From Blastopirellula sp. J2-11 (lineage in GTDB: Bacteria; Planctomycetota; Planctomycetia; Pirellulales; Pirellulaceae), in the NCBI RefSeq assembly GCF_024584705.1, contig NZ_CP097384.1, forward strand, positions 3,472,001-3,536,000: 64,000 nucleotides of DNA, given 5' to 3'. Numbering within the stretch: position 1 is the stretch's first letter; every line of letters starts with the position of its first letter. Below are positions 14,273-31,601 of this stretch, one piece after another. The notes below the pieces were generated by a model. It saw only the letters and a program-made list of their open reading frames with translations. It made no database searches and was not told the DNA's origin. The translations under genes and the position numbers were made by a program.

Positions 14273-15772
14273 CTACTTCGCCGCTTGCTTCGCCGACTCG
14301 CCAACCGTTAGTTCGCCGTCGCTAGCGTTGTCTTCGATCGTCGCGGGGTCAAACACCGGCAGTGTGATGCGGAAGGTGGTGCCGACGTCGGGCGCGCTTT
14401 CGATCTGGATACTGCCGTCGTGCGATGCGATGACCGCGGCGCAGATGCTGAGTCCGAGACCGGTTCCTTGCGTCGGTTCGCCGGGAACTCGTCTGCGATC
14501 GCCGCGGTAAAAACGTTCAAAGACCTTCTCGTGATCTTCTTCCCGAATGCCGCACCCGTTGTCGGCGATCGAGAGCTCCACCGTCCCGTTGTCGGCCGAC
14601 TTTTGGATCAGCACGTCAATCCGACCTCCCTCAGGCGTAAACTTGATCGCGTTGTCCAGCAGATTGTTGACCACCTGGCGAAGATGCTCGACATTGCCGC
14701 GCACCCAGCAAGATTCCATTTCGCTATGGAGCGTCAACCCATTCTCTTCGGCGGCGCCGCGGAACATATCGACCGACCTTTGCACAGCCAGATCCAACGA
14801 CATCCGATGGAGATGAAAGAAACGCCGATCCGACTCGGTTTCGGAGAGCAGCAACAGTTGATTGACCAGCGTCTCGAGATGATAGTTCTCTTCGATCAGT
14901 TCGCCGAGCAACTCTTGATAATCTTCGACCGGCCGCGGTTCGTTCAGCGTTACTTCGATACTGCTGCGAATCGCCGCGAGCGGCGTGCGCAGTTCGTGCG
15001 CCGCATTGGCCAGCAGATCTTGTTTCCGTTCGACATGCACGGCGATTCGATCGAGCAGCCCGTTGATTGTCGCCGCTAGTTGATCCATCTCGTCGCCGGT
15101 TCCCCGCCAGGGCAAACGTTCTTCAAGATGGCTAGGTCGCAACCGGGCCGAAGCGTGAATCATGTCCGATAGCGGTTCGGTGGCGCGCCCGGCGAGCCAA
15201 TATCCGCAGAGCGGCGCGAGCAATAATACGATGCCCGACGCGACCAAGACCTGACGATCGACACGCGTTAAATCGTCCCAAATCGGCCGCAAACTGGTTC
15301 CTAAACGGATCGACGCGATCCCTTCTTCCGGCTTGCCCAATTGGTGCTGTACGAATCGAATCGAACCAACTTCGATCGGTCGGGAATCGGCGATCTTCTT
15401 TGCGTAGTGCAGCGCCTCGTCCGGCGCTTTCGCGCTCGCCCAAATGACGTCCGAATTCTCGCCCATAAAAGCGACAAACCAACCATGCTGCAGGTGTCCT
15501 TCCGCATGCTGTTCGAGCGTCTGACGCATGTCGACCAGATCAATCGGACGTTCATTGAGCATCAATACGATTTGCCGCATATCCTCTGCTAGCAGCTGAT
15601 CCACTTCGTGATAGAGCGCGTAGCGAACCCCTTCGCGCAGCCCCGCTAGCGTCGCTCCTGCAGCCAACAATACGACGATCGCATTCCAGACCATCAGCCG
15701 AAATCGCAGCGTTTGAGACGCGGTTTTCAGGGTCTTCCAACGTTCGTTGATCCAGAGAGAGGAGGGACTCAT
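14273..15772 (-). CDS. Sensor histidine kinase (HAMP, HisKA, HATPase)
   Basis: 499 residues. First membrane helix at about residues 28-46 (LMVWNAIVVLLAAGATLAGL), a periplasmic sensor part of about 130 residues, second helix VLVASGIVLLLAPLCGYWLA, and a HAMP linker. The HisKA box AAHELRTPLAAIRSS has the phosphorylated His at about residue 259. ATPase boxes are N (NNLLDNAIKFT), G1 (DNGCGI), F (FERFYRG) and G2 (GTGLGLSI). It should autophosphorylate and signal to the OmpR-type regulator at 17418-18089. A porin gene on the opposite strand separates the two. The ligand is unknown. Confidence 0.88.
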   Translation of the reverse strand: MSPSSLWINERWKTLKTASQTLRFRLMVWNAIVVLLAAGATLAGLREGVRYALYHEVDQLLAEDMRQIVLMLNERPIDLVDMRQTLEQHAEGHLQHGWFVAFMGENSDVIWASAKAPDEALHYAKKIADSRPIEVGSIRFVQHQLGKPEEGIASIRLGTSLRPIWDDLTRVDRQVLVASGIVLLLAPLCGYWLAGRATEPLSDMIHASARLRPSHLEERLPWRGTGDEMDQLAATINGLLDRIAVHVERKQDLLANAAHELRTPLAAIRSSIEVTLNEPRPVEDYQELLGELIEENYHLETLVNQLLLLSETESDRRFFHLHRMSLDLAVQRSVDMFRGAAEENGLTLHSEMESCWVRGNVEHLRQVVNNLLDNAIKFTPEGGRIDVLIQKSADNGTVELSIADNGCGIREEDHEKVFERFYRGDRRRVPGEPTQGTGLGLSICAAVIASHDGSIQIESAPDVGTTFRITLPVFDPATIEDNASDGELTVGESAKQAAK

Positions 15773-15884
15773 GCTTTACCTTCAAGTTTTCAAACTAAGC
15801 AGTCGTATATTTTGTGAATCGCAAACTCGATCGCTAGCACTACGTGAATTCGGGAAGACCAGGCGCCTTAAGGGATTTTAATAG

Positions 15885-15897
15885 TTGACATCGTCAA
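15885..15897. promoter_or_regulatory. Small inverted repeat between divergent kinase and porin
   Basis: TTGACATCGTCAA has 5-base arms and lies 69 bases before the chosen porin start. It could be half of an operator or a promoter -35 box. There is no second copy to support it. Confidence 0.25.
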
Positions 15898-15965
15898 ATG
15901 AGAAAGCCGATGAGAATCCAACACCCCACTCCCTACGCCTAATACAAAAAACTGTCGGAAGTATC

Positions 15966-17390
15966 ATGATGATGCGCCGGATCGCGACCCTGATGTTCCT
16001 TCTTGCCTGTATAGGCTTTGTCCGCACGAGCTTTGGGCAGGAAGGCTACGTTGAAACCGATGTCGAACGACGTCTCCTCTCGATGGAGAGCGAAATCGAA
16101 TTGTTGCGCAACGAATTGGCCGCCGCCAAAACGGTCGGCAGCGCCCCCTACCAAGAGGCCTCCTATTCGACAGCTGCGGAAGAGGCCGGTTGGGTGATAA
16201 ACACCAACGTCGGCCTACCGCCGTGCCCTCCGGCCACAACTTATCCCACGTTGAAGGTCTCGGGCTTCTTTCACTTGGACTCGGATTGGTTCGACCAAAA
16301 TCAGGCGAATATCGCTACGGTTGGCGACATCCAAGATGGTAGCGGCTTCCGTCGCTCGCGTTTGGGCGTGAACGGCAAAGTCGCCGAAAACGTCAACTAC
16401 AACATGGAATATGATTTCGCAGTCAGCCAGGCCCGCTTCACCGACGTCTGGGTAAACTTTAGCGAAGTGGCCCTGCTGGGCAACGTTCGCATCGGTCGCT
16501 GGCGCCAGCCGTTCGGCATGGACGAATTGACGAGCGTGCGCGAACTGCCGTTTCTCGAACGTTCGCTGTTGTTTTCGATGTCTCCGTTCCGCCAAACCGG
16601 CGTCGGCTTCTACGATCACAGCGAAAGCGAAAACATGACCTGGGCCGCTTCGGTGATTCGCTATCAGACCGATAACTTTGGCAACACCGCCGGCGACAAC
16701 GGCGGCTATGGTTTCGTTGGTCGTTATACGATGCTGCCGATCTATCAGGATGATGGCGAACGCCTGGTGCATTTGGGCGCCGACTATTACTATGTCGATC
16801 CCTCCTTAAATACTACTCGCTTCGCATCGCAACCTGAAATTCAAATCGTCGACAGCACCGGGTTCCAAGGAAACATTCTATCGAGCGTTCCGCCGTTCAT
16901 CGACACCGGCGTGGTTCCGACCAACCACGTCAGCTCGTACCGCTTAGAAGCGGCCGCCGCCTATGGACGATTTTACGTCCAGTCCGAAGCGCAATGGCTG
17001 CAACTAGATCAGCTAGGCGGACCGAACCAAACGATCGAAGCGGCCTACATCCAAGGTCGCTACATCCTGACCGGCGAAAAGCTGCCGTACAATCGGAAGA
17101 CCGGCGTATTTGGAGCGATCACCCCCTTCCACGACGTGAAGCCCTGCTACGGCGGAATCGGCGCCTGGGAAGTGACGGCTCGATGGTCCTATGCGGACTT
17201 CAATGGCGCGTGGATTGGCGCCAACGCCGGTCCTGGTCGTCAATTGAACGACGCGACGCTCGGCTTGAACTGGTACGTCAACAAGTTTACCAAGTTCCAG
17301 TTCAACTACATCCATGCGATGTTGAACGATCCAACTCTCGGCGACAGCAACGCGAACATCTTCGCCGCACGCTGCCAGCTGGCGTTCTAA
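15966..17390 (+). CDS. OprO/OprP-like outer-membrane porin
   Basis: 474 residues from the ATG at 15966, which directly begins a signal peptide (MMMRRIATLMFLLACIGFV, cleaved near FGQ) and has GGAAG upstream. A start at 15885 would put 27 unrelated residues before the signal. After a short coiled coil (VERRLLSMESEIELLRNEL) comes a beta-barrel region with the family pattern LKVSGFFHLDSDWF, RRSRLGVNGKV, NMEYDFA, VRIGRWRQPFGMDEL and the terminal aromatic residue (ARCQLAF). OprP-type porins often pass phosphate or other anions; the substrate here cannot be told. It is flanked by the genes of a two-component system, which may regulate it. Confidence 0.82.
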   Translation: MMMRRIATLMFLLACIGFVRTSFGQEGYVETDVERRLLSMESEIELLRNELAAAKTVGSAPYQEASYSTAAEEAGWVINTNVGLPPCPPATTYPTLKVSGFFHLDSDWFDQNQANIATVGDIQDGSGFRRSRLGVNGKVAENVNYNMEYDFAVSQARFTDVWVNFSEVALLGNVRIGRWRQPFGMDELTSVRELPFLERSLLFSMSPFRQTGVGFYDHSESENMTWAASVIRYQTDNFGNTAGDNGGYGFVGRYTMLPIYQDDGERLVHLGADYYYVDPSLNTTRFASQPEIQIVDSTGFQGNILSSVPPFIDTGVVPTNHVSSYRLEAAAAYGRFYVQSEAQWLQLDQLGGPNQTIEAAYIQGRYILTGEKLPYNRKTGVFGAITPFHDVKPCYGGIGAWEVTARWSYADFNGAWIGANAGPGRQLNDATLGLNWYVNKFTKFQFNYIHAMLNDPTLGDSNANIFAARCQLAF

Positions 17391-17417
17391 GCAATTCCGG
17401 CGCGAAAGCGAGCTCAC

Positions 17418-18089
17418 TTAGCCGGTTCGTAAAACGTAGCCCCTGCCCCGCACGGTGTGGATCAGGGGCTCGTCGAATCCGCGATCTACTTTTTGCCGCA
17501 GATGGTTGATGTGGACGTCAATGACGTTAGTCATTCCATTCCAGTCCTGCCCCCACAGATGCTCGTTCAGCATCTTGCGCGAGACGATCTGACCTGCATG
17601 CCGCATCAGCAGTTCTAAGATGCTGAACTCCGACGGCGAAAGATCAATCTCTTTGCTGCTGCGCGTCACTTTGCGACTCCCCAAGTCGAGCGCTAGTGGG
17701 CCTGCTTCGTAGTTGAGCGCCGGCCGCGGACTGGCTCTGCGCCACATCGCGTTGAGCCGCGCGAGCAGCTCCGGAAATGCGAACGGTTTCACCATGTAGT
17801 CGTCAGCGCCATGATCCAGCCCTTGGACGCGATCATCGACCGATCCCAGCGCCGTGAGAATCAACAGCGGAGTGCCGATTCCTTCGTCACGCAGCGTTTT
17901 GACGACCTCCAACCCGCCGATCCCAGGCAGCATCAGGTCAAGCAAGATCGCGTCATATTGCTGCGTCCTGGCGTATTCCAGCCCCTTCTCGCCGCTGCGG
18001 GTCCACGTACATTCGTGCCCGGCCTCGGTGAGCCCGCGTGACAATGACTTGCCCAGGAGTTGTTCGTCTTCGACGACTAAAATGTGCAT
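17418..18089 (-). CDS. OmpR/PhoB-family response regulator
   Basis: 223 residues. The receiver domain has the acidic pair in VVEDE, phospho-acceptor D51 (AILLDLMLPG), T79 and K101 (VKPFAF). The C-terminal winged helix is complete: EIDLSPSEFSILELLMRHAG, VIDVHINHLRQKVD, HTVRGRGYVLR. It is convergent with the porin gene (27-base gap) and shares a strand with the histidine kinase beyond it. Most likely the partner of that kinase. Target genes are unknown, the porin being the obvious candidate. Confidence 0.92.
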   Translation of the reverse strand: MHILVVEDEQLLGKSLSRGLTEAGHECTWTRSGEKGLEYARTQQYDAILLDLMLPGIGGLEVVKTLRDEGIGTPLLILTALGSVDDRVQGLDHGADDYMVKPFAFPELLARLNAMWRRASPRPALNYEAGPLALDLGSRKVTRSSKEIDLSPSEFSILELLMRHAGQIVSRKMLNEHLWGQDWNGMTNVIDVHINHLRQKVDRGFDEPLIHTVRGRGYVLRTG

Positions 18090-18561: not shown

Positions 18562-18999
18562 ATGGCAGCCGATAACGTCGCGAGCAGCATCGCAGGAGAT
18601 CCGCTCAGCTTGCTGCGCGAATCCTCTCACGCTTTGCTGCAAACGGATTCTGAGCTCGCGATCATCAGCGGAGTTTTGTTACTGCTGATCGGTCTGCGTA
18701 CGCTGCTGCAAGGGAAGTTCACTCGCTTGATTCCGGTCCCGTTGAGCGCGATCTTTCTCGCCGCTTTGCCAAGCGTCTACTTCGACGTCAGCTGTCCCGA
18801 CTCAGACAAAACCGCGCTGGCGGAAGCGGAACCGTGCGACGTCCAGTCCAAATCGGACGCCGACTTCCTCTGGGCGCCAATCGACTATCGCCCTCGCGTT
18901 GTGCGAAACTCCACAACTTTGCAAATCGTCGAGGAACAAGCAGCTCAGACGCTGCGCAGCCGGAATACTTTTCTCCTTCGTGGGCCCCCTGCGGCCTAA
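18562..18999 (+). CDS. Small membrane protein of unknown function upstream of sbtA
   Basis: 145 residues from the ATG at 18562 (MAADNVASSIAGDPLSLL); the frame is open from 18487. One or two membrane helices are visible (LAIISGVLLLLIGLRTLL and LIPVPLSAIFLAALPSVYF), followed by a polar tail. No family is recognised. It points the same way as sbtA but is 202 bases away, so co-transcription is possible but not shown. Base composition and codon use are like its neighbours. It could be a spurious frame, though the hydrophobic pattern argues for a real protein. Confidence 0.45.
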   Translation: MAADNVASSIAGDPLSLLRESSHALLQTDSELAIISGVLLLLIGLRTLLQGKFTRLIPVPLSAIFLAALPSVYFDVSCPDSDKTALAEAEPCDVQSKSDADFLWAPIDYRPRVVRNSTTLQIVEEQAAQTLRSRNTFLLRGPPAA

Positions 19000-19201
19000 A
19001 CGCCGCTCTCTTTTCGCCCACCATGCCTTATTCACTTTCGTTTTGGATTCATCGCTGCTCGATCTCAGAAAAGTCATCTGTCCACGCGTTTGGCTTCCAA
19101 CTTTGAGAACCTGCCGCGACCAAAACGTACGCCGGCGACGACTTCATGCAGGAAGTCCGCCCAAGATTCAAATCAACCCCACAACTTAGTACAGGTGAAG
19201 T

Positions 19202-20995
19202 ATGCGTAAGCAGAAGCATCGCTCTGCTCAAAATGCGACCACCGGCCGCGGCCGGTGGTGGAAAGGCGCTTGCCTGGCGATTGTCCTTGTGACCGTCGGA
19301 CAAAGCGCGTACTGGCTGACCAATACGGCGAAGGCTCAAGAGAAGGAAGCCTCCGCCGTTACTGCGGTCGTCTTGGGCCAATCGATGAAGAAGGAAGCGG
19401 AAGTCCCTGCGGCGAAAGCGGACGAACTGAAAAATCGCCCCATCGGCATGCGCGAGTTTCGCGCCGTCGTCGAAGTCGAGGATCCGTCGACACTAAAAGC
19501 CGGCGACGAAGTCGATATCTCGCTGGTCACGCTCGGCGGCGATCATGGCCACGTCGAAAAGATCTTAAAAAAGGTCCGCGTCCAATCGGTCGAAGTTCCC
19601 CGCGGCGAAAAGCCGGAACCGGAGAAAGTTGTCACCGCCGAGGAAGCCGGAGCCGAACACGTCACGCCAGAACTTTATCCGACGCGCGTCGTCACCCTCC
19701 AGGTGACCAGCGGTCAACTCGAGAAGGCCCGTGTCGCCGACGCCCAAGGCATCCTCCGCTTGTCGCCGTACGTCGATCATGCAAACGTCGGCATGTTAGA
19801 ATCGATCGCAAGCAACTTTGTGGCCAACTTGTTTCAGCCGTTGTTGCTCTTCTTCTTCATGGGCTTCGCGATTCCGCTGTTGCATGTCCCCTTTGAATTT
19901 CCCAAAGCTTTGTATCAAAGCTTGACCATCTATTTGTTGGTAGCGATCGGCTGGCACGGCGGCGAGCTGATGGCCGCTTTGGCTCCATCAGAACTGGCGG
20001 TCGCCGGCGGATTGGCCGTAGTGGGGTTCATCGTGAACGGTCTCATCGGAATCGCAGCTACGTGGATGTTGCGAACCTTTACTCCGATGCGCCGGATCGA
20101 TGCGGTGACCGTCGGTTCTTATTATGGCTCTGACTCGGCAGGCACCTTTGTAACTTGTTTGGGTATCTTGGCGACCTTGGGCATGCTGCACGACAGCTAC
20201 ATGCCGGTCATGCTGGCGGTCATGGAAATCCCCGGCTGTTTGGTCGGCTTGTTCCTGATCTCCCGTTTGCGGCGTCAAGGGATGGATATCTCGGGCAACA
20301 TGCCGGACGAAGCCGGATATTCGGGACCTGCAAGCGGAGACGATTCATGGAACGACGGGGCTGGAACAGGCGAAGAGGATCCTTACGCGCATGACGACTC
20401 GAAGAAGCTCGTTCCTAAATCGGTCGGAGCGGCAGCCGCGCATAGCGGCGGAATTTTGAGCCCGAAGATCTTGCACGAAGTCTTCCTGAATCCAGGACTC
20501 TTCATGCTGTTTGGCGGTTTGGTCGTCGGCTTTATTAGCGGTCGCCAGGCGCTGGTCGATCCGCACGTTGTCGAAGGCCCCAACAACTTCTTTGTCATGA
20601 TGTTCAAAGGAGCGTTGTGCTTGTTCCTGTTAGAGATGGGCATCACCGCATGCCGCCGTCTGCAAGACTTGAAGTCGGCCGGCGTCGGGTTCATCATCTT
20701 TGGTCTGCTGGCGCCCAACTTGTTCGCGTTGATGGGAATTTGCGCCCTGCACGCTTACAGCATGGCGCTGGGACATCACTTTGAAACAGGCACCTACGCG
20801 TTGATGGCGGTCCTTTGCGGAGCCGCATCCTACATCGCCGTTCCGGCGGTGCAGCGAATCGCAATTCCAGAAGCGAGCCCCACATTGCCGTTGGCCGCTT
20901 CACTAGGTCTGACGTTCACTTGGAACGTGACATTGGGGATCCCGATTTACATCGAGATGGCGAAGTTCGTCATCAGTACGTTCCCGGTTACCTAA
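19202..20995 (+). CDS. sbtA: SbtA-family bicarbonate transporter with N-terminal CpaB/RcpC-like domain
   Basis: 597 residues against about 370-380 for cyanobacterial SbtA. Residues 1-45 form a signal anchor (WWKGACLAIVLVTVGQSAYW). Residues about 80-195 resemble the RcpC domain of the Flp-pilus protein CpaB: GMREFRAVVEVEDPSTLKAG, DEVDISLV, KKVRVQSVEV, then VVTLQVTSGQLEKARVADAQ and GILRLSPY. From about residue 205 the SbtA (DUF897) membrane domain follows: LFQPLLLFFFMGFAIPLL, YYGSDSAGTFVTCLG, VMLAVMEIPGCLVGL, a polar central loop (about residues 360-410) and LFLLEMGITACRRL. SbtA imports bicarbonate with sodium. The genes just downstream encode SbtB-like PII and carbonic anhydrase. A CAGGTGAAGT site precedes the start. 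Confidence 0.82.
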   Translation: MRKQKHRSAQNATTGRGRWWKGACLAIVLVTVGQSAYWLTNTAKAQEKEASAVTAVVLGQSMKKEAEVPAAKADELKNRPIGMREFRAVVEVEDPSTLKAGDEVDISLVTLGGDHGHVEKILKKVRVQSVEVPRGEKPEPEKVVTAEEAGAEHVTPELYPTRVVTLQVTSGQLEKARVADAQGILRLSPYVDHANVGMLESIASNFVANLFQPLLLFFFMGFAIPLLHVPFEFPKALYQSLTIYLLVAIGWHGGELMAALAPSELAVAGGLAVVGFIVNGLIGIAATWMLRTFTPMRRIDAVTVGSYYGSDSAGTFVTCLGILATLGMLHDSYMPVMLAVMEIPGCLVGLFLISRLRRQGMDISGNMPDEAGYSGPASGDDSWNDGAGTGEEDPYAHDDSKKLVPKSVGAAAAHSGGILSPKILHEVFLNPGLFMLFGGLVVGFISGRQALVDPHVVEGPNNFFVMMFKGALCLFLLEMGITACRRLQDLKSAGVGFIIFGLLAPNLFALMGICALHAYSMALGHHFETGTYALMAVLCGAASYIAVPAVQRIAIPEASPTLPLAASLGLTFTWNVTLGIPIYIEMAKFVISTFPVT

Positions 20996-21096
20996 GCCCA
21001 ATTGCAATCATGGGATGGTTGTCGGCCGATTTTGGCTGCCCGCGGGTCGGTCGACAACCTCCGTTTTAAGAAAACAACGACCTTGGGAGATATTCC

Positions 21097-21426
21097 GTGT
21101 TTACTACCAAAAACGCGCGTCGCGTCACGATTGTGATGGACGCGGCGCTCAAAGGCTTCATGCTGGAGAAGCTCTCCGAGTTGGGAGTCCGCAGCTATAG
21201 CTTTATGAATTGTCATGGCCAAGGTCACCACGCGGTGACCGGCGATCTCTACAACGGCGACGATTTGCTTCGCCTAGAAATCGTGACGACCACCGAAATC
21301 GGCGCCAAGATCCTTGACTGGATTCATGCCGCTCAGTTCGCTCAACTCAGCCAATATGCGTTGTTCGCCTATGCGGACCACGTCGAAGTCGACGAACGCG
21401 ACCAATCGTTTCGCAACACTCCGTAG
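21097..21426 (+). CDS. sbtB: SbtB-like PII family regulator
   Basis: 109 residues from a GTG. The ferredoxin-like PII pattern is readable: ARRVTIVMDAALKGFMLEKL, then ELGVRSYSFMNCHGQGHH at the base of the T-loop, and LLRLEIVTTTEIGAKILDWI. SbtB proteins bind adenine nucleotides and cyclic AMP and control SbtA; regulation of the neighbouring transporter is inferred from this. The canonical uridylylated Tyr of GlnB is not evident, and the C-terminal CGPxGC redox motif of some SbtB proteins is absent. It lies 101 bases after sbtA on the same strand. Confidence 0.78.
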   Translation: MFTTKNARRVTIVMDAALKGFMLEKLSELGVRSYSFMNCHGQGHHAVTGDLYNGDDLLRLEIVTTTEIGAKILDWIHAAQFAQLSQYALFAYADHVEVDERDQSFRNTP

Positions 21427-21537
21427 CCGGCGCAATGAACTTCCCTGGCCCGCTCGGCGCGTTGCAACTCGCCTGGCGGGCGACCTTCTGCTCTTCGATT
21501 TGCACTTCGCAACCACCCACTGAAGGATTGCGCCGTC

Positions 21538-22410
21538 GTGTTCTCTAGCTTCGCTTACAACCCCAACAGCCAGTATTCGCTGGGCACGACCATGCAGCGT
21601 CCCAATGACGCAGACTCCGCCAAACAGGCGTTGGAACAAGGAAACCTGGCTTTCCGTCACTGGATCGCCAACGCGTTCACCGGCAACGAATCGACCGACG
21701 AAGTCGACTTGGCTCAACGTCGCGCCACGCTAGAGACTCTCTTCCCGACCGGCAAGGTTCCTAAGCAAACCCCGTTCGCCGCGGTGTTTGGCTGTTCTGA
21801 CGCGCGCGTTCCGGTTCGCCAGTTGTTGGGGCAATCGGCGAACGATATCTTCGAGATCCGCACCGCCGGTCAGACGATGGGAGACGAATGCCTGGGCAGC
21901 GTCGAATATGCGCTTCGCCACATGCCGACCATCAAAACGGTCGTCGTCCTAGGACACGGCAGTTGCGGCGCCGTCTCTGCGTCGGTCGATTCGTATCTGA
22001 CCAGCTGGGGGCTGAACCTGGGGCTCGCGTCAGTTGGACTGCGCAGCATTTTGCAACGCATTAACCCCGCGGTGGTCTTAGCCGCTCAATCGATTCAAGC
22101 ATCCACCATCGGCGTCGACTTCCGCCGTGAGACCGATCGCAAACGCCTGATCGACGTCGCGACAACGCTGAACGCCGCCGCGTCGGCTCATCAATTAAAA
22201 CTATTGGCCAACAGCGTCGACCGTTCCGATGTCAGCGTTCTGTTTGGCGTCTACGACATCGCGACGCACGCGGTCGTGCGCCCTCCGCTCCGCGCGGTCG
22301 ACGGAGACGCGTGGGAAGATGGCCTGGCCCTAGCGCCCGAAGAAGATGACCTCTTAGAATCGCTCGCGGCGATTTCCGTCACCGCCGCCGATCGACAACC
22401 GCTCGGTTAA
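21538..22410 (+). CDS. Beta-class carbonic anhydrase
   Basis: 290 residues from a GTG with GAAGGA about 10 bases upstream; an ATG at codon 19 is an alternative start. Zinc ligands and catalytic dyad are intact: C86, D88 and R90 in FGCSDARVPV, and H140 and C143 in LGHGSCGAV. It interconverts carbon dioxide and bicarbonate in the cytoplasm. It is 111 bases after the SbtB-like gene and followed by a terminator, so it closes the bicarbonate operon. The C-terminal 70 residues are longer than in minimal beta enzymes. No signal peptide is seen. Confidence 0.9.
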   Translation: MFSSFAYNPNSQYSLGTTMQRPNDADSAKQALEQGNLAFRHWIANAFTGNESTDEVDLAQRRATLETLFPTGKVPKQTPFAAVFGCSDARVPVRQLLGQSANDIFEIRTAGQTMGDECLGSVEYALRHMPTIKTVVVLGHGSCGAVSASVDSYLTSWGLNLGLASVGLRSILQRINPAVVLAAQSIQASTIGVDFRRETDRKRLIDVATTLNAAASAHQLKLLANSVDRSDVSVLFGVYDIATHAVVRPPLRAVDGDAWEDGLALAPEEDDLLESLAAISVTAADRQPLG

Positions 22411-22450: not shown

Positions 22451-22500
22451 GCAACCCGCATCGAGTCTCCCTACCGCTTCGATGCGGGTTGCCGTTTTTC
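22451..22500 (+). terminator. Strong intrinsic terminator of the sbtA-sbtB-carbonic anhydrase operon
   Basis: Perfect 14-bp arms GCAACCCGCATCGA (22451-22464) and TCGATGCGGGTTGC (22479-22492) with a 14-base loop, followed by CGTTTTTC. Confidence 0.92.
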
Positions 22501-31512: not shown

Positions 31513-31601
31513 GGAGAGGTGGCAGAGTGGTCGAATGCGCCGGTTTGCTAAACCGGTGAACGGGTCAAACCGTTCCACGGGTTCAAATCCCGTCCTCTCC
31601 G
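31513..31601 (+). tRNA. tRNA-Ser(GCT)
   Basis: Acceptor arms GGAGAGG (31513-31519) and CCTCTCC (31594-31600) with discriminator G at 31601. The anticodon loop TTGCTAA gives anticodon GCT. A long variable arm (AACGGGTCAAACCGTT) and the T-arm CGGGTTCAAATCCCG are typical of class II tRNA-Ser. CCA is not encoded. An integrase gene reads toward its 3' end, suggesting the tRNA is the attachment site of an island. Confidence 0.97.

Follow-up and report, generated by a model that had tools for sequence, protein, structure and literature searches.

An SbtA-type transporter fused to an RcpC D2-type domain and preceded by a candidate RGPP arrest peptide in a Blastopirellula genome

The window analysed here is a stretch of 64,000 nucleotides from Blastopirellula sp. 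J2-11 (contig NZ_CP097384.1, positions 3,472,001 to 3,536,000). The locus of interest within it comprises a small upstream open reading frame (uORF), an sbtA gene whose product carries an additional N-terminal domain, and genes for a PII-like protein and a beta-carbonic anhydrase (Table 1). The host genome (G000), from a planctomycete of the Blastopirellula type, is complete at 6.43 Mb. Among named relatives in which the locus occurs, B. marina DSM 3645 is the nearest, and its fusion protein is 96 % identical. An earlier, sequence-only reading of the window had described an SbtA transporter fused to an RcpC-like domain, followed on the same strand by PII and beta-carbonic anhydrase genes and a terminator. 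The open reading frames (ORFs) on which it drew were all recovered at the same positions, and the downstream genes and the terminator were borne out by profile matches and by a perfect 14-nt inverted repeat (22451–22492) with a T tract after it. The start that it gave to the feature, 18562, belongs to a separate upstream gene which it did not discuss, and which is the most unusual part of the locus.

Table 1. Positions of features of the sbtA locus, numbered from the first nucleotide of the window
Feature	Position	Strand	Remarks
Upstream ORF (uORF)	18562..18999	+	145 aa, hydrophobic membrane segment, C-terminus ...FLLRGPPAA and stop; candidate RGPP translation-arrest peptide
RGPP codons CGT GGG CCC CCT	18979..18990	+	From the sequence; Pro codons 18985–18990 would lie in the P and A sites by the geometry of PMC12992588
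Hairpin GCGGC-CTAAAC-GCCGC, then TCTCTTTT	18991..19006	+	uORF stop codon in loop; candidate attenuator
UUCACUU segment	19031..19037	+	Predicted pairing with sbtA Shine-Dalgarno region 19193–19199; weak
CAACCC	19174..19179	+	Invariant in seven orthologous leaders
sbtA fusion gene	19202..20995	+	597 aa
Signal peptide region, residues 1–44	19202..19333	+	A-x-A before Gln; Ala43 invariant in alignment
RcpC/CpaB D2-type domain, residues 74–195	19421..19786	+	Pfam, profile–profile, Foldseek, VIA-align
SbtA (Sbt_1) transporter core, residues 199–597	19796..20992	+	Sbt_1 profile, Synechocystis SbtA alignment
PII-like protein	21097..21426	+	109 aa
Beta-carbonic anhydrase	21538..22410	+	290 aa; CSDAR and HGSC motifs
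Terminator	22451..22499	+	14-bp inverted repeat and T tract

The carrier is unambiguously a member of the SbtA family (TC 2.A.83). The Sbt_1 profile matches residues 213–587 (E 2.3e-87) over positions 1–307 of its 308, and residue 4 of Synechocystis SbtA aligns with residue 199 of the fusion, which leaves an N-terminal extension of approximately 198 residues and agrees with the figure of about 200 proposed previously. The sequence motifs then quoted as an RcpC pattern are present as stated. In Pfam, RcpC matches residues 97–187 with E 2.9e-4 when the whole protein is the query and 4.2e-5 when only the N-terminus is used. This match lies below the gathering score, and independent support was therefore needed from profile–profile comparison, from the fold and from relatives. 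RcpC is the best Pfam family for the N-domain in nine of ten relatives, and an N-domain profile aligned by hhalign with six planctomycete CpaBs gave a probability of 97.2 (E 3.2e-11) with the whole domain covered. An AlphaFold2 model of the domain has a mean predicted local distance difference test score (pLDDT) of 60, with core blocks at 68–81; in Foldseek its sole match below 1e-3 was RcpC 9gzr (E 2.2e-5), and VIA-align superposed residues 74–195 on residues 119–239 of the 9gzr chain with Z 9.7 over 96 residues, the next row standing at 5.5. No RcpC was returned when the N-domain profile was run directly against the sequences of solved structures, the relationship being visible only by profile–profile and fold comparison. 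The full CpaB profile TIGR03177 is matched in part (positions 132–211 of 262, 23 bits against a cut-off of 71). The N-domain is an RcpC/CpaB D2 domain and not a full CpaB/RcpC protein, as there is neither a D1 domain nor a full-length match. The sequence-only reading had specified beforehand that the lack of a profile hit together with an unrelated fold, or absence from all relatives, would count against an RcpC assignment; profile, fold and occurrence in relatives are all positive. The fusion is confirmed and the assignment strengthened, while transport by the protein is putative.

The hydrophobic stretch at the N-terminus, formerly taken for a signal anchor, is present, but is more likely a signal peptide that is cleaved: it ends in A-x-A (A-K-A|Q) with Ala43 invariant in all ten relatives, which by the -3/-1 rule points to cleavage. 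The reported topology of SbtA has the N-terminus outside, and with this a probably periplasmic location of the fused domain is consistent. In RcpC, side-by-side contacts join the D2 domains into a C12 ring, oligomerization requires the L3 linker, and the secretin is bound by a beta-hairpin at the C-terminus (PMC12307814). Given this ring formation by D2, the domain most likely serves, by analogy, as a periplasmic collar stabilizing the SbtA trimer; the sensor or assembly role proposed earlier is putative. The fusion resembles RcpC/CpaB, the Tad-pilus alignment protein (PDB 9gzr; PMC12307814), in D2 by profile and fold and probably in its periplasmic location. It differs in having SbtA as its membrane part where RcpC has one helix, and in carrying D2 only, without the D1 (SAF-type) domain, the L3 linker or the beta-hairpin. 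The domain could instead tether SbtA to another component of the envelope, for instance a Tad-pilus or secretin complex, and the genome does contain two true CpaB-type genes. However, the parts of RcpC that serve secretin binding and oligomerization are those missing here, and the neighbourhood of the locus showed no pilus gene, so that tethering is an improbable role for the domain.

Among 241 genomes of the family, full fusions are found in three of the genus Blastopirellula (g1) and four of a second genus, g58. In the wider order, the N-domain profile picked out 11 carriers among the 397 genomes searched, namely these seven and four of family f8; each has a single match, always in an SbtA frame. 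The frame is long enough for a full fusion in 10 of the 11, the eleventh being 260 aa long at a contig end. The same fusion, at 58–62 % identity, is encoded at three loci of metagenome-assembled genomes (MAGs; L034–L036), some of which may derive from the same organisms as the f8 carriers. The survey of SbtA homologues that had been suggested earlier thus shows the fusion to be shared by relatives. In a tree of SbtA cores from ten fused proteins and 27 unfused planctomycete homologues, all fused members fall in a single clade (support 100/100), with a single change of state. The fusion arose once, and is found only in a few genera of the Pirellulales and in MAGs. Unfused planctomycete SbtA proteins (e.g. 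L039–L043, L048–L056) have cores 49–58 % identical to that of the fusion and lack the RcpC extension. In two further genomes, G433 (L075:8142-8604) and G262 (L076:9065-9445), only fragments of sbtA remain, interrupted by stops and frameshifts, beside an intact RGPP uORF, and in G262 the remnant is followed by an intact beta-carbonic anhydrase gene.

The uORF stops 202 nt before sbtA and ends in Arg-Gly-Pro-Pro-Ala-Ala. In many phyla no tetrapeptide is avoided more than RGPP; in seven of seven tested RAPP/RGPP-type examples from Streptomyces lividans, and in Bordetella CruR, ribosomes stall in a motif-dependent manner, and the published stall geometry has the two proline codons in the P and A sites (PMC12992588). 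Six-frame scans revealed ORFs ending in RGPP[AV]x and a stop upstream of sbtA in the other fusion carriers of the Pirellulaceae (G002, G001, G390, G471, G473 and G475), and one ending in RGPPV and a stop at the MAG locus L036, so that an RGPP-ending ORF is present at 7/7 Pirellulaceae fusion loci and one MAG locus. In the flanks examined, unfused planctomycete sbtA genes showed no upstream ORF with this end. In a set of 60 genomes, LRGPP[AV][AV] before a stop occurs three times, and two of these are the uORFs described here; the third (G010) is antisense to a large ORF and was rejected as chance. Across all copies of the uORF, conservation is highest at RGPP and the middle diverges; the RGPP codons vary at the third base with the peptide fixed. 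The uORF is under purifying selection, with a ratio of non-synonymous to synonymous substitution (dN/dS) of approximately 0.1 within g58 and 0.5 between the window and G002. A hydrophobic segment, judged by hydropathy to be a localization signal, lies 64–90 residues before RGPP in every copy. Pfam assigned no family to the uORFs, including the copy in G390.

These features are those of known RAPP/RGPP arrest peptides (ApdA, ApdP, CruR and the S. lividans set; PMC12992588, PMC10987492), which are likewise small, localized uORFs with a motif near the C-terminus no more than two residues from the stop, a variable middle and an envelope gene downstream on the same strand. Here, the downstream gene encodes an SbtA-type transporter; neither SbtA nor bicarbonate is mentioned in the main texts (supplements excluded) of these two papers. 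The present, putative family is further distinguished by a hairpin that encloses the stop codon and by the presence of homologous copies ahead of two different transport operons. The features in common suggest that the uORF is an RGPP arrest peptide which controls the transporter. Such control of sbtA is probable, and the arrest-peptide-like leader is a more consequential feature of the locus than the confirmed fusion.

A homologous RGPP uORF was found in seven g58 genomes (G384, G390, G433, G262, G471, G474 and G475; loci L117, L118, L119, L123, L124, L131 and L132) by a scan of selected fusion carriers and non-carriers. Its stop lies near position 1521 of the oriented locus, and in six of the seven it precedes, by 268–290 nt, a gene for an HlyD/CusB-type adaptor of the resistance-nodulation-division (RND) type (Pfam, on the G390 copy) whose N-terminus is His-rich and lipoprotein-like; for G433, the first adaptor start found is a longer in-frame one, 132 nt from the uORF. 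The sbtA-type and RND-type uORFs match each other in BLASTP with E values down to 1e-23, and have in common the membrane segment, GKPxxPHSxDS and the RGPP end. A cysteine pair of the form SECAELSEC is present in most RND copies and absent from the g58 sbtA copies. G384 and G474, which lack sbtA, have the RND copy only. The two uORF types are therefore probably paralogues within one arrest-peptide family that was recruited to two different transport operons. Other RGPP matches were rejected, in L113, L125, L126 and L128 as frames of 14–48 aa, and in L127 owing to a TGG in place of the stop.

Alternatively, the uORF may encode an ordinary small membrane protein, with an RGPP end incidental to sbtA and a separate promoter for the transporter in the 200-nt gap. 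The gap is roomy enough for a promoter, a sigma-70 scan was uninformative, and in G433 and G262 the uORF has outlasted an intact sbtA. However, a tetrapeptide so strongly avoided in proteomes (PMC12992588) would not be expected as the best-conserved part of a protein whose middle diverges, the changes in its codons are silent, and homologous RGPP uORFs precede another transport gene. The distance from uORF stop to sbtA ATG is, moreover, constant (202–212 nt in g1 and 230–232 nt in g58) despite diverged leader sequence. An incidental RGPP end is accordingly judged unlikely.

If the uORF is an arrest peptide, the RNA around its stop codon could be the switch. By the published geometry (PMC12992588), a ribosome with the two prolines in its P and A sites would cover the 5' arm of the stop-codon hairpin, a structure also listed by a terminator scan. 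Stop-codon hairpins recur in most orthologues, which are not independent of one another, with compensatory arms such as CCGG/CCGG, CCAG/CUGG and CCCG/CGGG. The proportion of shuffled sequences folding as well as the hairpin ranges from 0.00 (window) to 0.31, with 0.73 in L036. RNAalifold, applied to seven leaders, gave three common pairs, all at the stop-codon hairpin. As the hairpin recurs and the common pairs fall there, a model in which the stalled ribosome melts an attenuator or a folding element is favoured, on suggestive but not conclusive grounds. Pairing of the Shine-Dalgarno region with the UUCACUU segment is predicted with pair probabilities up to 0.94 in the window and is similar in G001; elsewhere there are other partners, and because of this inconsistency across leaders Shine-Dalgarno sequestration is a weak possibility. 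An Rfam search of the leader returned no family. In addition, CAACCC, approximately 25 nt before the sbtA ATG, is invariant in seven otherwise diverged leaders, and no pairing partner was found for it.

The PII-like protein matches the P-II profile with E 9e-8. Its gene adjoins sbtA at 7/7 Pirellulaceae fusion loci and is next to several unfused planctomycete sbtA genes as well; it was not found next to the fusion at the MAG loci L034–L036. The sequence-only reading had called it SbtB-like, and its membership of the PII family and its adjacency to sbtA stand. Identity with SbtB is less certain: among solved structures the best match is TTHA0516 (E 1.3e-6), while SbtB is matched only with E 0.09, and the CGPxGC motif, present in only some SbtB proteins, is absent. 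The carbonic anhydrase matches Pro_CA (E 6.9e-22) and has both zinc motifs, C-x-D-x-R and H-x-x-C. It adjoins the locus in three Blastopirellula genomes and G262, but four g58 fusion carriers have no carbonic anhydrase gene next to sbtA; its place as a fixed member of the unit was dropped, and it is outside the conserved core of the locus. Family searches of the genome gave no match to the RuBisCO large subunit or PEP carboxylase, both of which were detected in control genomes, in agreement with the non-autotrophic setting assumed earlier.

Compared with the cyanobacterial SbtA–SbtB system (Synechocystis; PDB 7cye, 7egk; PMC8352866), the locus has in common the Sbt_1 core and an adjoining PII-type gene. 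It differs in the signal peptide and D2 domain, in its type of PII, in the inclusion of the beta-carbonic anhydrase and the RGPP uORF, and in the lack of RuBisCO in the genome. Since PII and carbonic anhydrase genes adjoin, bicarbonate is most likely the substrate of the carrier. A bicarbonate site formed by Ser114, Tyr140, Ser324 and Ser327 has been proposed for Synechocystis SbtA by docking, and not by observation (PMC8352866); Ser114 and Ser324 are retained in the fusion, as S312 and S543. The carrier may instead move another small anion or metabolite with Na+, with PII and carbonic anhydrase as coincidental neighbours. The remaining two docked ligands are altered (Tyr140 to Leu338 and Ser327 to Ala546), and the carbonic anhydrase gene is not conserved beside sbtA outside Blastopirellula and G262. 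Set against this are the strong family membership, the presence of the PII gene in all seven Pirellulaceae and beside several unfused homologues, and the carbonic anhydrase gene that follows in Blastopirellula. Of the alternatives considered, a different substrate is slightly the least improbable, although still doubtful.

The evidence is best explained by a bicarbonate-import unit in which an SbtA trimer with a periplasmic RcpC-type collar, a PII-like protein and, in Blastopirellula, a beta-carbonic anhydrase are under the control of an RGPP arrest peptide; a rough probability of one in two, or marginally better, is given to this reading. The trimer would import HCO3- with Na+. A cleavable signal peptide would export the N-terminus, placing the D2-type domain in the periplasm above the trimer, which it may stabilize, and the PII-like protein may act at the cytoplasmic face of the carrier. 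The Blastopirellula carbonic anhydrase could serve biotin carboxylases and the synthesis of carbamoyl phosphate by interconverting CO2 and HCO3-. Translation would arrest at Arg-Gly-Pro-Pro and resume once the nascent membrane protein has been pulled, or bound, at the membrane; in the meantime the stalled ribosome would melt the stop-codon hairpin, allowing expression to continue into sbtA.

Several observations weigh against this reading. Two of the four docked ligands are changed, and the L3 linker, which RcpC needs to oligomerize, is absent from the proposed collar. A model of the full-length fusion, built from a 10-row alignment, was unusable (mean pLDDT 42). RNAalifold gave no extended common structure for the seven leaders, and the T tract after the stop-codon hairpin is imperfect. 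Lastly, L034 and L035 carry the fusion, and neither the RGPP uORF nor PII was found there; therefore, neither is obligatory.

A broader proposal, put forward tentatively and at somewhat less than even odds, is that a Pirellulaceae family of RGPP arrest peptides (membrane segment, GKPxxPHSxDS, acidic stretch and LRGPP end) has been copied before operons for SbtA import and an RND efflux adaptor. Each copy would convert an envelope or periplasmic signal into expression through stall-dependent melting of its own stop-codon hairpin, and in the case of SbtA this would amount to arrest-peptide control of inorganic-carbon uptake by a transporter with a pilus-derived periplasmic collar. Candidate signals include Sec/YidC engagement, metal binding and the energy state of the envelope. 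If this is correct, ribosome-arrest peptides also govern inorganic-carbon transport, here in a bacterium that lacks RuBisCO, and the specificity of sensing could be dissected in two homologous arrest peptides whose targets differ. The transporter would also be a case in which a domain from pilus assembly was acquired as a periplasmic module, on one occasion and within a single bacterial order.

Elsewhere in the window, a Porin_O_P gene on the forward strand lies between a response regulator and a histidine kinase, both on the reverse strand (14273–18089). This order is kept in B. marina and G001, and the genes were not found near sbtA in G390. A tRNA gene is present at 31513–31601 (Rfam).

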